Program-made: the position numbers and the translations under genes
Part shown: in pieces, positions 3,514-46,461 of the stretch
How positions within the stretch are numbered: the first letter of the stretch is position 1
Layout of the letters: every line of letters starts with the position of its first letter
The notes under the pieces: model-generated
What the model was told of the DNA's origin: nothing
Seen by the model: only the letters and a program-made list of their open reading frames with translations
Databases searched by the model: none
From: Actinomycetes bacterium
GTDB lineage: Bacteria; Actinomycetota; Acidimicrobiia; IMCC26256; Chersky-534
NCBI GenBank assembly: GCA_025463865.1
Contig: JAODBH010000033.1
Span: 1 to 46,619, forward strand
Length of the DNA stretch: 46,619 nt
Direction: 5' to 3'

Positions 3514-5307
3514 CTAGGACGCCCCGAACGGCTTGCTCGAACCGGGCTTCGAGCTCGAGTGCCCGTTGCCACTCCCGTTGCCGTTGCCGTTCCCGTTGCC
3601 ATTGCCGGTGGTGGGCGGCCCGAGGGGCAATGCCTGCGTCTTGCGCCACGCCAGCTCCTGCTTGCGCTCGCGCAGATAGTGCGCGGAGGTCTCGGAGCCG
3701 CGGGCCACCTCGTCCTTCCGGCTGGGACGGGTTCCGTTGAGCACCACGCCGAGCGGCGTGATCGGGGAACCGCGCCACGACCGCATCGTGCGGCGGAGCG
3801 CCGCACGTCGCGTGCTTCCGGGCCGTACGACGAGGACGACGCCGTCGACGAGTCCGGTGAGGCTCGCGGCCTCGGACAGGAGCGCGAGCGGCGTGTCGAT
3901 CACGACGAGGTCGGCGCTCGCGGTGAGGGCCTGGATCAACGCGCCGGCGCGGGCGGAGGACAGCAGCTCGGCTGCCCGGGTGCTGAGCAAGGGGGAGGGC
4001 GAGGCCGCGATCGTCGCCGGCAACCAACGGAGGTGCTCGATCCGGGTCTGCATGAGCGCACGGCTGAGCACGGCCGGATCGGAGAGGTCGAGATCGACGT
4101 CCACGAGGAGCTCGGCCAGCCCACGGTCCGGGGTGTTCCCCATCGTCGGCCTCCGGCCGGGAAACAGCTCGCGGTGGACCGTCGGTGCCCGGAGATCGGC
4201 CGATACGAGGATCGTGTTCAGGCCGGAGAGCGCGTACGCGGCCGCGAGGTTCGTGGCCACCGTCGTCTTGCCGTCGCCCGACTGCGGGCTCGTGACCGCG
4301 ATGCTCGCGGGCGAGCCCCGATCGACGGTCCACATCAGGGAGGCCCGGAGCGCGCGCACCGACTCCGCGTACCGGGAGCCGGGCGCGTCGCCCACCCGGA
4401 GCCGACGTTTCCGCAGATTGCGGTCCTTCGGAAGCTCACCGAGGGTGCGGAGGCCCGCGACGTCCTCCACCCACTCCCGGTCCCGCACCTTGGTGTCGAG
4501 CGCCTCACGCAGCGCCGCGAGCCCGATGCCGATGAGGAGCCCGATCAGCGCGCCCTGGAGACCCCGGGTGACCGGCGAGGTGGAGCTGCTCTTCACGGCG
4601 CCCTGCGCGGGAAGCAGGAACTTCACGCCGCTGTCGTGACTCGTGAGGGAGGCCTGGAACTGCTGCTGGTTGGCGAACACCGCTTGGTACTGGCTGAGCC
4701 ACACGGTCTTCGACGTCTCGAAGGCCGTGGTGTCGGGATTGGTCAACCTCGAGATGGCTTCTTGCGCATTGATCTGGCTGATCTGGGACTCGATGTCCTG
4801 CAACTGCTTGTTGGTGCCGGCGATCTGCGCGTTGAGCGCGCCCTCCCGGGTGGTCCACCGGGTGTCGATGACCGATTGGGCCACCGCGTTCGCCACTTTG
4901 GTCGCCTGGTCCGGCGTGGCGGCCGAGGTGTCGATGGTGACGGTGCGCGCGGGGAGGTTCACCGACGCCTTGACGGTCGCGCCCAGCGGCCCGGTGCCGG
5001 TTCCGAGCTTCCTCGCGGCATCGGCCAGAACCTCGGGGGCGGTGGCCTGACGTTGGAACGTGCTGGCCAACACCGTCGAGAGCACCGGGGCTGCGTCACC
5101 CGCGGTCGGTTGGACCGCCAAGGGCAGGGTTCCGTCCGGGCCCACGGCGGGCTCGACGTAGAGCTGCGCGTGCGCCTGATAGCTGGACGACTGGTCGTGG
5201 TGGGCCACGAATCCCGCGACCAGGCCGACGACGATCGCGGCCTGGAGCACGACCCACCACTCACGTCGGACGACATCCAGGTAGCGGCGGATCGCGGCGT
5301 CGGTCAC
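3514..5307 (-). CDS. Wzz-type copolymerase fused to a tyrosine-kinase-like ATPase
   Basis: The 597-residue protein joins an N-terminal chain-length determinant domain (membrane segment at about 17-35, extracytoplasmic region, second segment near 250) to a cytoplasmic P-loop kinase-like domain. That domain has Walker A SPQSGDGKTTVATN, Walker A' ILVSADLRAP and Walker B LVVIDTPLALL. Such proteins control polysaccharide chain length and export. The tail is odd: instead of the tyrosine cluster of BY-kinases it ends in a Gly-Asn repeat and a Ser/Pro/Lys stretch, with a single Tyr (SAHYLRE) nearby. Its GTG start overlaps the stop of the upstream regulator gene as GTGA. Enzymatic kinase activity is therefore doubtful although the ATPase motifs are intact. 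Confidence 0.9.
   Translation of the reverse strand: MTDAAIRRYLDVVRREWWVVLQAAIVVGLVAGFVAHHDQSSSYQAHAQLYVEPAVGPDGTLPLAVQPTAGDAAPVLSTVLASTFQRQATAPEVLADAARKLGTGTGPLGATVKASVNLPARTVTIDTSAATPDQATKVANAVAQSVIDTRWTTREGALNAQIAGTNKQLQDIESQISQINAQEAISRLTNPDTTAFETSKTVWLSQYQAVFANQQQFQASLTSHDSGVKFLLPAQGAVKSSSTSPVTRGLQGALIGLLIGIGLAALREALDTKVRDREWVEDVAGLRTLGELPKDRNLRKRRLRVGDAPGSRYAESVRALRASLMWTVDRGSPASIAVTSPQSGDGKTTVATNLAAAYALSGLNTILVSADLRAPTVHRELFPGRRPTMGNTPDRGLAELLVDVDLDLSDPAVLSRALMQTRIEHLRWLPATIAASPSPLLSTRAAELLSSARAGALIQALTASADLVVIDTPLALLSEAASLTGLVDGVVLVVRPGSTRRAALRRTMRSWRGSPITPLGVVLNGTRPSRKDEVARGSETSAHYLRERKQELAWRKTQALPLGPPTTGNGNGNGNGNGSGNGHSSSKPGSSKPFGAS
3561..3607. repeat. Short tandem repeat (gttgcc/cccgttgcc units) encoding Gly-Asn tail
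   Basis: Units of gttgcc and cccgttgcc repeat within about 47 bp at the 3' end of the copolymerase gene. On the minus strand they encode alternating Gly and Asn. Units of six are in frame, so slippage would change tail length without breaking the gene. Confidence 0.8.
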
Positions 5308-5921
5308 GGGAGCTCCGGCTTCGGTACATCGAGCAGACCGGCATCGAGCGCCCGGGCGACAGCCTGGGACCGGTTGCGAACCCCGAGCTTACGAAAGAGC
5401 AGCCGTTGCGTGTTCTCGACCGTCCGCGGCGAGATCGCGAGTCGCAGCGCGGTCTGCTTCACCGACAATCCAGCTTCGATCGCGAGGAGGATCTCCCGTT
5501 CACGGGCGGTGATCGGTGGAGGACTCTCCGGAGTCGGCCCGCCGCGGGCGTGCAAGGCCTCGACGAGGAGGCCGGCCTGACGCCGCGTGAGCGCGCTCTC
5601 ACCGCGAGCGGCGCGGTCCAGCGTGTCGACGAGCTCCGACGGCGCACACGCCCGTGTCCGCACCGCGCTCGCGCCGGCTTCGATCAGCTCGACCAATCCC
5701 GACCCGGCAGGCTCCTGGACCACGAGTGCCACGGCCGGGCGACCGAGCGCGCGCACCTGCTCCCATTCGGCGACGCCGGGATCGTCGAGCACCAGCACGT
5801 CGGCATCTTGCACGGCCTGGCCGCGAAGGACGCGCAGCGACGCGCGCTCGAGCACGGAGGCGATGGCCTCGGCCCGCAACGGCCGGGGCCCGACCACGGC
5901 GACCGACGGCGCGCCGCTCAC
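5304..5921 (-). CDS. LuxR-family regulator with degenerate receiver domain (copy 1)
   Basis: The 205-residue protein ends in a LuxR-type HTH (about 137-195): ITAREREILLAIEAGLSVKQTALRLAISPRTVENTQRLLFRKLGV. The first 115 residues have the length and strand pattern of a receiver domain, but the acidic pocket after the first strand is replaced by VVGPRPL and the conserved Lys near the end is missing. An Asp pair (LVLDDPG) is present where the phosphorylated Asp would be. It was probably a response regulator that no longer responds to phosphorylation in the standard way. Its start overlaps the stop of the upstream paralogue as GTGA, and its stop overlaps the start of the copolymerase gene, so it is embedded in the polysaccharide operon. 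Confidence 0.88.
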   Translation of the reverse strand: MSGAPSVAVVGPRPLRAEAIASVLERASLRVLRGQAVQDADVLVLDDPGVAEWEQVRALGRPAVALVVQEPAGSGLVELIEAGASAVRTRACAPSELVDTLDRAARGESALTRRQAGLLVEALHARGGPTPESPPPITAREREILLAIEAGLSVKQTALRLAISPRTVENTQRLLFRKLGVRNRSQAVARALDAGLLDVPKPELP

Positions 5922-6547
5922 CCTTGCCCCGCTGCCGTGGCGTCGGTGCTCGTCGCCGGTTCGAGCAGCCCGGCACGGAGCGCGATAGCGACCGCGTGGG
6001 CCTGGTTCTGCACGCCGAGCCGTTCGAAGATCCGCTGCTTGTGCTGCTCGACCGTACGGATGCTGATACCGAGGGCCGCCGCGACACCACCGGACGTGCG
6101 GCCGTCGGCCACGAGCGCGAGCACGCTCCGCTCACGCGGAGTGAGCGGCATGGGCCCGATCGTGGGGCGCGTCCATCGCAACCGCGTGCGGGCTTCGCTG
6201 CCGGCCACCGCGTCGATCAGCGACGCAGGGTCGGCGCTCGTGTCGACCAGCGTGACGAAACCGGCGGCGAGCGCGACGCCCACCAGCGCGGGTGGCAGCG
6301 AGTCGTGCACGCCCACCACCCGCACGTCGGGGAAGCGACGTTCGGCGAACGCAGCCACATCCGATGCGTCGCGCAGATGCACGAGGACCACATCGAACGG
6401 GACGTCGAGCTGGTCGAGCTCACGCAGCGAAGCAACACACGCGACCACCTCGACGGTCGCACCGCCCACGATCAGCGCGAGGCCTTCCCTCAGGATCACT
6501 TCCTGCGCGATCACGGCGAGACGCGACGTGCTGACGGCATCGCTCAC
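5918..6547 (-). CDS. LuxR-family regulator with degenerate receiver domain (copy 2)
   Basis: This 209-residue protein has the same layout as its downstream neighbour: a receiver-like domain and a C-terminal LuxR HTH (LTPRERSVLALVADGRTSGG then AALGISIRTVEQHKQRIF). The phospho-acceptor position reads DVVLVHLRDAS, with His in place of Asp, and the N-terminal acidic pocket is absent (LAVIAQEV). I chose the GTG at 6547, preceded by GGAAGGG on the minus strand; longer frames upstream run into non-coding sequence. It is the first gene of the leftward polysaccharide operon and faces the divergent gap with the repeat array, so it is a good candidate for an operon-specific regulator. The two copies look like an old tandem duplication. 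Confidence 0.87.
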   Translation of the reverse strand: MSDAVSTSRLAVIAQEVILREGLALIVGGATVEVVACVASLRELDQLDVPFDVVLVHLRDASDVAAFAERRFPDVRVVGVHDSLPPALVGVALAAGFVTLVDTSADPASLIDAVAGSEARTRLRWTRPTIGPMPLTPRERSVLALVADGRTSGGVAAALGISIRTVEQHKQRIFERLGVQNQAHAVAIALRAGLLEPATSTDATAAGQG

Positions 6548-6680
6548 GGGCGCACCACCCTTCCGGTGGTCCGAGCGCTGGAGAGGGATGCGTTCCGGTG
6601 CGCTGCGTCCATGGTTCCTACCGATTGACCTGCCGTGACGCGACACGCGAACGGTAGCGGGGATGCTCCGATCGTCAACC

Positions 6681-6706
6681 ACGAGTGCCCGAAGTACGGG
6701 ACTCGT
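6681..6706. promoter_or_regulatory. Inverted repeat, possible operator or hairpin
   Basis: The arms acgagtgcccg and cgggactcgt pair almost perfectly around the centre aagta, with one extra base in the left arm. It lies about 135 bp upstream of the first LuxR gene and 20 bp before the direct-repeat array. It could be a dimeric regulator site or an RNA hairpin in the leader. Confidence 0.5.
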
Positions 6707-6725
6707 CGCCACGGCAAGTGACGTT

Positions 6726-6811
6726 GGGTGCTCTGCGTGCAAAACCCGAGGAATACTCTCCGTGATATAGAGCGAATGCTCTCCGTGGGAATGGAGCGAA
6801 TACTCTCCGTG
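6726..6811. promoter_or_regulatory. Four-copy direct repeat, ~24 bp period (candidate regulator sites)
   Basis: Three near-identical 14-mers (gaatactctccgtg, gaatgctctccgtg, gaatactctccgtg) start at 6751, 6774 and 6798. A weaker copy (gggtgctctgcgtg) starts at 6726. Spacings are 25, 23 and 24 bp, so all sites lie on roughly similar faces of the helix. The array sits in the divergent gap in front of the twin LuxR genes, which suggests cooperative binding by one of them; that link is inference. Confidence 0.6.
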
Positions 6812-7129
6812 AGATCCCGAGCGACGCAGGTATTTCGCCAACTCGCTCGGTGAAAGCCCTGCAGCTTTCCACGATCGAGCGCCTCGATCAACCAGTGAAT
6901 GTGAACAACCAGTTTCACCACACTGATCGTTGGGTGTGAGCCAATACCCGGGGTTCGATACCCGCGCGATCGTTGTGCCGCAAGGGTTCGCGGCTCGCAT
7001 GGGGCACTTACCCGACCCGCGGATATCTGGCGCGTTTGCGGATGAAGATCGTGTTTTAGCCGCGAACTTCGGGCGTTTGAGTGCTAGGAAGCGGCGCAGC
7101 ACTTCCCGAGGGCAGGGGCACGGCACGGG

Positions 7130-8329
7130 ATGGACACGCCACTGAGCCAGGCGACGGTCGCGTCTTCGATACGAGCCAAAGAGGTCGGCATCTCGCGTCT
7201 TCGCGAGGTCGATAGGACGAAGGTCGATCAGGCAAAGATCGCCATCGTGCACGACTACCTGACCGTCATCGGGGGCGCCGAACGGGTCGTGCTCTCGATG
7301 ATCCACACGTTCCCCAAGGCCCCGATCTACACGTCGCTGTACGAGCCGAAGACCATCATTCCGGAGCTGGCCAGCGGCCATGACATCCGGGCCAGCGTGC
7401 TCAACCGAGTCGGGCTCTTCCGGCGGAACCACCGGACCGCCATGCCGATCCTCGGACCGACGTTCAGCCGCATCAAGATCGACGCCGACGTCGTGCTGTG
7501 CAGCTCGAGCGGTTGGGCCCACGGCGTGCAGACGTCGGGCCGGAAGCTCGTCTACTGCCACAACCCCGCCCGCTGGCTCTACCAACGGACCGAATACCTG
7601 CAACAGGGCAACCGGTTGTGGTGGCTCATGGCGACCGGCATGCACCCGTACCTCCGGCGCTGGGACCGCGCCGCGGCCGCCAGCTGTGATCGGTACGTGG
7701 CGAACTCCTCGATCGTGGCCGAACGGATTCGCAACGCGTATTCCATCGACGCCGAGGTCCTCCCGCCGCCCACGTCCTTCGAGTCCACCGGTCCCCTCCG
7801 GGCCGTCTCCGGGCTCGAGGCCGGCTTCTTCCTGAGTCCGGGGCGGCTCATGGGGCACAAGAACACCGCTGCGCTCGTCGAGGCGTTCGCGGCGCACCTT
7901 CCCGACCTCCAGCTCGTGATCGTCGGCGTCGGCCCCGAGGGTGAGCGCCTCGCGGCCGGCGCGCCACCCAACGTGCACTTCACCGGACAGGTCGACGACG
8001 ACGAGTTGCGCTGGCTCTACGCCAACTGCACCGCGTTGATCTCGGCCTCGCGGGAGGACTTCGGGCTGACGCCGCTCGAGGCCGCGTGCTTCGGGAAGCC
8101 CTCGGTGCTCCTCCGCTACGGTGGCTTCCTCGACACCATGGTCGACGGCGAGACCGCCGTCTTCTTCGACCAACCGGAGCCCGCCGCGATCGCGATCGCC
8201 GTCATCCGCGCCCGAACCGAGTCCTGGGACCAGGCCGCGATCCGGGAGAACGCGCAACGGTTCTCGACGCCACGGTTCCAGGAGCGGCTGCGGGCCATCG
8301 TGGCCGAGGAACTTCGGGAGCAGGGCTGA
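7130..8329 (+). CDS. Glycosyltransferase, GT4 family
   Basis: This 399-residue protein has the N-terminal IAIVHDYLTVIGGAERVVLSM motif of GT4 enzymes, where the GG loop contacts the donor phosphate. Its C-terminal domain has FFLSPGRLMGHKNTAALVEAF, VNVHFTGQ-like sequence and the acidic segment ISASREDFGLTPLEAACFGKPSV. It probably adds a hexose to the lipid-linked glycan. The ATG at 7130 gives about 35 residues before the usual family start, and that leader is not typical, but no start codon lies nearer to the conserved strand. Its stop overlaps the start proposed for the ligase-like gene downstream. It is transcribed away from the regulators. Confidence 0.88.
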   Translation: MDTPLSQATVASSIRAKEVGISRLREVDRTKVDQAKIAIVHDYLTVIGGAERVVLSMIHTFPKAPIYTSLYEPKTIIPELASGHDIRASVLNRVGLFRRNHRTAMPILGPTFSRIKIDADVVLCSSSGWAHGVQTSGRKLVYCHNPARWLYQRTEYLQQGNRLWWLMATGMHPYLRRWDRAAAASCDRYVANSSIVAERIRNAYSIDAEVLPPPTSFESTGPLRAVSGLEAGFFLSPGRLMGHKNTAALVEAFAAHLPDLQLVIVGVGPEGERLAAGAPPNVHFTGQVDDDELRWLYANCTALISASREDFGLTPLEAACFGKPSVLLRYGGFLDTMVDGETAVFFDQPEPAAIAIAVIRARTESWDQAAIRENAQRFSTPRFQERLRAIVAEELREQG

Positions 8330-10943: not shown

Positions 10944-11723
10944 GTGACCGTGATCGTGCTGCCGCCATCGGAGGGGAAGGCAACCGGGGGACGAAGGCCC
11001 TGGGTGCCGGAGTCCGGACGGTTCGCCGCCCTGGGCGCGGCGCGGCGTGAGGTGGCGACCGCGCTGGCAGCCGCGATGGCCCAGGGGGTCGAGCAGCAGC
11101 GGAAGCTCCTCGGAGTGGGCGGCCCGCTCCTCGAGCGCGCCGCGGCTGCGAACGCGCACCTCGTCGGGTCGCCGGCCGTCGCTGCGCACGCGCGGTACCG
11201 AGGGGTGGTCCACGACCACCTCGACGTCGGTTCGCTGGGGCCTTCCGAACGCCGGCGCGCCTACGGGTCCGTCGTCATCGTGTCGGCCCTGCTCGGAGCC
11301 GTCGCCCTCACCGACCCGGTCCCCGACTACAAGCTCAAGATGGGCGCGAGCCTCCCCGGACTCGGTTCCGTCGCCCGGTTCTGGAGCTCCCTCCTACCGG
11401 GCGTCCTCGACGCGGCCGGACGGCGCGGCGAGACTCTCGACCTGCTGCCGAACGAGCACTCGGCCGCTTGGCAACCGCTCGGTCCGCGCGTCACCCGCGT
11501 CCGCTTCGACCAACCGGCGGCCGAGGGAGGCCGCGCCCGCGCCGTCGGGCACGGAGCCAAGGCCGTGAAGGGCATCCTCGCCCGCTACGTGCTCGAGCAT
11601 CCGGGCAAGCTCCACGACGTCCTGCCTGAGTTCACCTGGGAGGGCTGGACCTTCGATCCGTCCGGGAGCCGTCGCAGCTCCCGGACGGACGAAGGGCTCC
11701 TCGTGTTCCTCGCCCCCGCCTGA
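10944..11723 (+). CDS. yaaA: YaaA family protein (DUF328, peroxide stress)
   Basis: The 259-residue protein has the YaaA hallmarks: an N-terminal VIVLPPSEGK strand, YRGVVHDHLDVGSL, VVIVSALLGAV, then DPVPDYKLKMGASLPGLG and W-centred helices. YaaA proteins limit oxidative damage to DNA and proteins by lowering free iron and bind DNA in E. coli. The GTG at 10944 gives the family's normal length. The last 35 bp of coding sequence include a perfect 13-bp inverted repeat, described separately, and the gene ends 1 bp from a convergent hemerythrin gene. Confidence 0.88.
   Translation: MTVIVLPPSEGKATGGRRPWVPESGRFAALGAARREVATALAAAMAQGVEQQRKLLGVGGPLLERAAAANAHLVGSPAVAAHARYRGVVHDHLDVGSLGPSERRRAYGSVVIVSALLGAVALTDPVPDYKLKMGASLPGLGSVARFWSSLLPGVLDAAGRRGETLDLLPNEHSAAWQPLGPRVTRVRFDQPAAEGGRARAVGHGAKAVKGILARYVLEHPGKLHDVLPEFTWEGWTFDPSGSRRSSRTDEGLLVFLAPA
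11657..11689. terminator. Perfect 13-bp stem hairpin inside the 3' end of yaaA
   Basis: tccgtccgggagc and gctcccggacgga pair perfectly around a 7-nt loop, 34 bp before the yaaA stop. The convergent neighbour begins its own 3' end 1 bp after that stop, so there is no intergenic room for a terminator and the hairpin may serve that role for either gene. No U-tract follows. Confidence 0.5.
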
Positions 11724-45786: not shown

Positions 45787-46461
45787 TCACGCGCGACGGG
45801 CGACCGCCGCACCGACGACCGCGGAAGCTCCCGCGCGGCGCAGCTCCCGGGCCGCGGCGGACAGGGTGGCCCCGGTCGTGAGGACGTCGTCGACCACGAT
45901 GACGGTGGCCGCCTCCGCGCGGAGGGCCCGGAACACCGGTCCGGACCGGCGCTCCGCAGCTGAACGGCCCGTCTGCGGAGGCCCGGGACGGCGCGCCAGC
46001 ATCCGCCGCACCGGGAGCCCGAGCTCCGGACCGATGCGCCGGGCCAACAGCTGCGCGTGATCGAACCCGCGGGCGCGTCGACGGACAGCTGTGGTCGGTG
46101 CCCACGTGACGACGGCCCGGTGCAGGTCCCACTCCCCCGCGGCCGGCTGCGGCGCGGCCTCCCGGAGTGCCGCGTCCTGCAGTGCTGCGTCCTGCAGTGC
46201 TGCGTCCTGCAGTGCGCTGACGACTGCGAGTGCCATCCAACGCACCGGGTGCACCGACCCGCGGTACTTGAGCCGGGCGATCAGCTCGCGCATCGCGCCG
46301 TCGTACGCGAACGGCACGGCCAGCGCGTCGAGACCCTCCGGCTGCGGGCCGCCCGGCGCTCGCCGCAACCCCGCCACGCACACGTCGCACAGGGGCTCGC
46401 CCGGCGCTCCACATCCCGGGCAACGGGCGGGAAACACACTGCGGACCAGACCATCGAGCAT
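45787..46461 (-). CDS. ComF family phosphoribosyltransferase-like protein
   Basis: The 224-residue protein has the N-terminal zinc-binding CPGCGAPGEPLCDVC, FAYDGAMRELIARLKYRGS and a C-terminal PRTase domain with VIVVDDVLTTGATLSAAARELRRAGA, the ComF signature. ComF acts in DNA uptake during natural competence in some bacteria, but the family is widespread. A three-copy 15-bp repeat sits in the middle. A GTG at 46491 could extend the protein by 10 residues; the ATG at 46461 gives the usual N-terminus. Confidence 0.9.
   Translation of the reverse strand: MLDGLVRSVFPARCPGCGAPGEPLCDVCVAGLRRAPGGPQPEGLDALAVPFAYDGAMRELIARLKYRGSVHPVRWMALAVVSALQDAALQDAALQDAALREAAPQPAAGEWDLHRAVVTWAPTTAVRRRARGFDHAQLLARRIGPELGLPVRRMLARRPGPPQTGRSAAERRSGPVFRALRAEAATVIVVDDVLTTGATLSAAARELRRAGASAVVGAAVARRA
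46167..46211. repeat. Three 15-bp tandem repeats within the comF-like gene
   Basis: gtgccgcgtcctgca, gtgctgcgtcctgca and gtgctgcgtcctgca occur head to tail. On the minus strand they encode AALQD three times, between the zinc finger and PRTase parts. Being a multiple of three, copy changes do not break the frame. Confidence 0.9.

Follow-up and report, generated by a model that had tools for sequence, protein, structure and literature searches.

For the GerE-type regulator ComA of B. subtilis, inverted repeats with a 4-nt centre are the preferred sites, and direct repeats can serve as well (PMC4797271). DevR, a NarL-type regulator, fills close-packed sites cooperatively, with the proximal site at –35 (PMC3029386). 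Here we describe a repeat array in front of a polysaccharide operon headed by two LuxR genes, located in a 46.6-kb window (the whole stretch of DNA that was analysed, 46,619 nucleotides). A literature search returned no study of this locus. Our preferred explanation, to which we give about an even chance, is that the array is a lineage-specific multi-site operator that tunes the luxR1-luxR2-wzz/BY-kinase operon from upstream of its predicted promoter.

Genes of the locus and anatomy of the array

The genes on the two sides of the array are the following:

3514–5307, minus strand: Wzz/BY-kinase type polysaccharide chain-length protein, third gene of the operon (Pfam)
5304–5921, minus strand: LuxR2, GerE helix-turn-helix, no recognised receiver (Pfam)
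5918–6547, minus strand: LuxR1, GerE helix-turn-helix, no recognised receiver (Pfam and profile matches; GTG start at 6547)
7130–8329, plus strand: divergent glycosyltransferase, group 1 (Pfam; ATG at 7130)

The Wzz/tyrosine-kinase gene is followed by ABC export genes and a glycosyltransferase; after the divergent glycosyltransferase gene comes a gene for an O-antigen-ligase-like protein. The initial annotation had taken the first two genes of the operon for LuxR genes, and this is borne out: both products carry a C-terminal GerE helix-turn-helix of the LuxR/NarL type (Pfam E 5.3e-16 for LuxR1 and 6.6e-14 for LuxR2), and the array is upstream of their likely promoter. The Pfam search for Response_reg gave no match in either protein. 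Partial matches to response-regulator models exist, and LuxR1 matches chains of EsrB, VraR, ComA and DevR.

A four-copy repeat starting at 6726, 6751, 6774 and 6798 had been reported in the 582-bp divergent gap (6548–7129). The coordinates are right, and at least three copies were reached in none of 300 dinucleotide-preserving shuffles of the gap. The ‘four’ are three near-perfect copies and a degenerate one: GAATACTCTCCGTG at 6751 and 6798 and GAATGCTCTCCGTG at 6774 are near-perfect copies of GAATRCTCTCCGTG, while GGGTGCTCTGCGTG at 6726 is weak but in register, matching the 6751 copy at 10 of 14 positions and the 6774 copy at 11 of 14. Start-to-start distances are 25, 23 and 24 bp. When extended leftward, the 14-mer becomes GAG(C)GAATRCTCTCCGTG, and the conserved unit is thus about 18 bp long, GAGCGAATRCTCTCCGTG:

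6726–6739, unstranded: copy 0, degenerate, GGGTGCTCTGCGTG (in-register sequence; repeat family D6 covers the same stretch)
6748–6764, unstranded: copy 1, GAG-GAATACTCTCCGTG, without the dyad C (repeat and shuffle analysis)
6770–6787, unstranded: copy 2, GAGCGAATGCTCTCCGTG, with a perfect dyad AGAGC-GAAT-GCTCT at 6769–6782 (repeat and dyad search)
6794–6811, unstranded: copy 3, GAGCGAATACTCTCCGTG (repeat search)

The 18-bp unit includes a dyad, GAGC-GAAT-GCTC, with a 4-bp centre. It is perfect in copy 2, has one mismatch in copy 3, lacks one base in copy 1 and is present only as its right half in copy 0. By analogy, such a dyad would suit a dimer of the GerE (LuxR/NarL-type) family. Since 23–25 bp correspond, by arithmetic, to 2.2–2.4 turns of B-DNA, adjacent units are not on one face of the DNA, which is an unusual geometry for side-by-side cooperative dimers.

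The array cores are identical at 16–17 of 18 positions. The spacers ATATA, GGAATG and AGATCCC (the last one after the final unit) are 5, 6 and 7 bp long, differ in sequence as well as in length, and match one another at only 2–3 positions; this contrast is partly circular, because the core borders were picked by likeness, after the fact. It bears on a neutral alternative in which slippage duplicated a 24-bp unit in this lineage and the copies are now in decay, with no binding protein involved. The period, nearly constant at 24 bp, the restriction of the array to one genome and the occurrence of similar-sized tandem duplications elsewhere (for example, a 26-bp Shine-Dalgarno stretch and a 9-bp CTCTCCGTG run in two other genomes) are in line with such an expansion. 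However, the spacers have fully diverged and differ in length whereas the 18-bp cores have barely changed, with the core border set after the fact, and the array sits beside a predicted promoter. We regard neutral expansion as less likely than an operator, but as a serious alternative.

With at most one mismatch, the 14-mer occurs in only these three places in the whole 3.96-Mb assembly. A search of the same genome with the 18-mer, allowing up to three mismatches, yielded beyond the array only single 3-mismatch matches at control level, and a regulon of further sites in this genome was rejected on this ground. Because near-exact copies are confined to this place and other matches are at control level, the array is an element dedicated to this locus rather than a member site of a regulon. 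The divergent gap that holds it does not look coding: the GC bias by codon position, strong in the flanking genes, disappears between about 6650 and 7100, and an overlapping 125-aa minus-strand open reading frame has no Pfam match. A CRISPR array was rejected, since the spacers are 5–7 bp long, as opposed to the unique spacers of about 30 bp and the cas genes of CRISPR. Plasmid iterons and a transposon end were rejected too, as no rep or transposase was found among the Pfam-annotated genes near the array.

Other repeats were seen in the window. The same divergent gap contains a second short direct repeat at 6886–6913 (GATCAACCAGT / GAACAACCAGT, 17 bp apart). A perfect 12-bp inverted repeat at 11658–11688, CCGTCCGGGAGC-CGTCGCA-GCTCCCGGACGG, is located shortly before the end (11723) of a plus-strand open frame that meets a hemerythrin gene head-on. 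A near-perfect 15-bp tandem repeat at 46166–46215 (3.3 copies of AGTGCTGCGTCCTGC) has a unit length that is a multiple of three and may be an in-frame repeat.

Predicted promoter and the palindrome at its –35 box

Two features were found between the array and LuxR1:

6651–6678, minus strand: predicted promoter of the LuxR1 operon, TTGACG-16-TACCGT (TTGAC-N17..19-TANNNT scan)
6681–6706, unstranded: imperfect 26-bp palindrome ACGAGTGCCCG-AAGTA-CGGGACTCGT, operator-like (dyad search)

The promoter-like match at 6678–6651 on the minus strand is the only match to TTGAC-N17..19-TANNNT in the window (chance expectation 0.19). A stricter sigma-70 scan gave no promoter match because TACCGT retains only TA...T of the second hexamer. 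The predicted promoter faces LuxR1, LuxR2 and the Wzz/tyrosine-kinase gene; transcription from it is expected to start near 6644, about 97 bp before the GTG of LuxR1, which places the array at about –82 to –167. The array thus falls in the upstream activation zone of what is likely to be the promoter for the LuxR1-LuxR2-polysaccharide operon. As in a cooperative multi-site operator of a GerE-type regulator, nearly identical sites are grouped next to a promoter, here a predicted one.

The order of these elements also bears on the possibility that the array acts as RNA: the leader of the LuxR1 transcript would then carry four CACGGAGAG units that fold into hairpins or are recognised by an RNA-binding protein. 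Read on the LuxR1 strand, every unit is CACGGAGAG and includes a short hairpin (AGAGC-AUUC-GCUCU); CsrA-type proteins are known to target repeats that contain GGA. Yet folding is no better than in shuffles on either strand (z –1.1 and –0.6, not significant), and with the predicted promoter downstream of it the array would stay untranscribed. We consider an RNA element very improbable.

The palindrome stops 2 bp before the predicted –35 box. It is only moderately unusual, because 22 of 500 shuffles of the gap give one as good (10 pairs), and no second close copy of it was found in the genome.

Relatives of the locus

One relative with orthologues of the twin LuxR genes was found (genome G005), a member of the same order. 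Its LuxR1 orthologue is 64% identical over the helix-turn-helix, with a near-identical recognition helix, and its LuxR2 orthologue is 40% identical over residues 42–200. They belong to three LuxR-type genes in a row (L066:6803–9446), the third being an additional one; this trio adjoins open frames reading like a DegT-type aminotransferase and a low-molecular-weight phosphatase. A genome of the same genus (G001, 80% complete) is uninformative on conservation of the array, since it has no LuxR1 orthologue and no glycosyltransferase or BY-kinase match. In a phylum sample of 397 genomes searched at E 1e-16, LuxR1 had no orthologue except in its own genome.

The array motif, allowing up to two mismatches, is absent from the G005 locus and its LuxR1-upstream DNA, a single distant relative, and alignment of the window gap with that upstream DNA is no better than for shuffles. 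The initial annotation had proposed the twin LuxR proteins as binders and had named two outcomes that would count against it: repeats not conserved in relatives that keep the regulators, or no binding by either protein. The first of these is what the motif search at the orthologous locus gave, in one distant relative: G005 keeps both LuxR genes without the motif, which leaves the twin proteins plausible but unsupported as binders. This comparison with one relative argues weakly against LuxR1 as the array binder.

Among 395 genomes of the class, the 18-mer with one mismatch has eight matches outside the genome of the array, all lone and all inside long open frames. No tandem array was found elsewhere in this set, only unrelated chance or simple-repeat cases. 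Three of these were rejected individually: a duplicated 26-bp Shine-Dalgarno stretch before a gene reading like rplY (G024), a 9-bp CTCTCCGTG simple repeat run (G278), and two CTCTCCGTG words 22 bp apart (G242, L111:1500–1532), which do not exceed chance (by a hand estimate about 0.2 are expected, and a control gave one match). The G242 pair, with a NarL-type response regulator on one side and a pilin-like gene on the other, is intriguing but probably a chance occurrence. Viral contigs gave three motif matches, none of them tandem. Because G005 lacks the array, no regulon is seen and the array is absent among the 395 class genomes, the initial interpretation is only partly supported.

G005 also bears on another assignment of the sites, in which the –35 palindrome is where LuxR1 acts and some other regulator uses the array. 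The window gap contains the word ACGAGTN{0,2}CCC two times, once in each arm of the palindrome, and the DNA upstream of G005 LuxR1 also has it two times (background 0.02 per kb); the recognition helices of the two proteins are near-identical. The arms in the window are ACGAGTN{0,1}CCC and the G005 words ACGAGTN{1,2}CCC, 18 bp apart. But the arrangement differs, being inverted in the window and direct in G005, the palindrome has no regulon in the genome, and a fair control, in which any word that is present twice and also shared by a random stretch counts, does as well in 276 of 3000 cases; the sharing is therefore a hint only (p ~0.09). This division of labour seems unlikely to us. The two G005 words, at L066 6617 and 6635, are a recurrence of the palindrome half-site ACGAGTNCCC as direct repeats, which is not significant under this control.

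Candidate binders and known GerE-type systems

If the array is a multi-site operator, its three strong and one weak putative sites would be bound by a sequence-specific, probably dimeric, DNA-binding protein. We infer that this protein would tune the luxR1-luxR2-wzz/BY-kinase operon, either by upstream activation or by repression through multi-site binding; the divergent glycosyltransferase gene may be affected too. LuxR1 or LuxR2, by autoregulation, is the most economical candidate, one that we put forward tentatively, and some other regulator encoded in this genome has a similar likelihood. An arrangement in which one LuxR protein reads the –35 palindrome and the other the out-of-phase array, their ratio setting the output of the polysaccharide operon, strikes us as improbable. 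Should the twin LuxR proteins bind it, the array would provide a binding site for an uncharacterised LuxR pair in which no receiver was recognised and whose genes head a polysaccharide operon, in a lineage that has been little studied; autoregulation could then readily be tested through it.

As a kind of system, the array represents an ordinary type of switch, and its parallels with ComA and DevR are likenesses, not membership. ComA serves several promoters, whereas the array motif is found at one place only, and the ComA hexamer TTGCGG forms a direct repeat with a 5-nt spacer, in contrast to whole 18-bp units every 23–25 bp. The ComA sites (PMC4797271), like the array, comprise more than one recognition element ahead of a promoter, combine inverted with direct repeats, and include an inverted repeat whose centre is 4 nt long, which in the array is perfect in copy 2 only. 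DevR contains a receiver domain and its regulon comprises about 48 genes, while here there is no Pfam-recognised receiver and no regulon, and the sequence is unlike. The DevR/DosR boxes of M. tuberculosis nevertheless resemble the present case in that close-packed sites, the proximal one at –35, are found with an actinobacterial GerE-type regulator (PMC3029386); autoregulation and shared sites serving divergent promoters, here proposed only, would be further likenesses.
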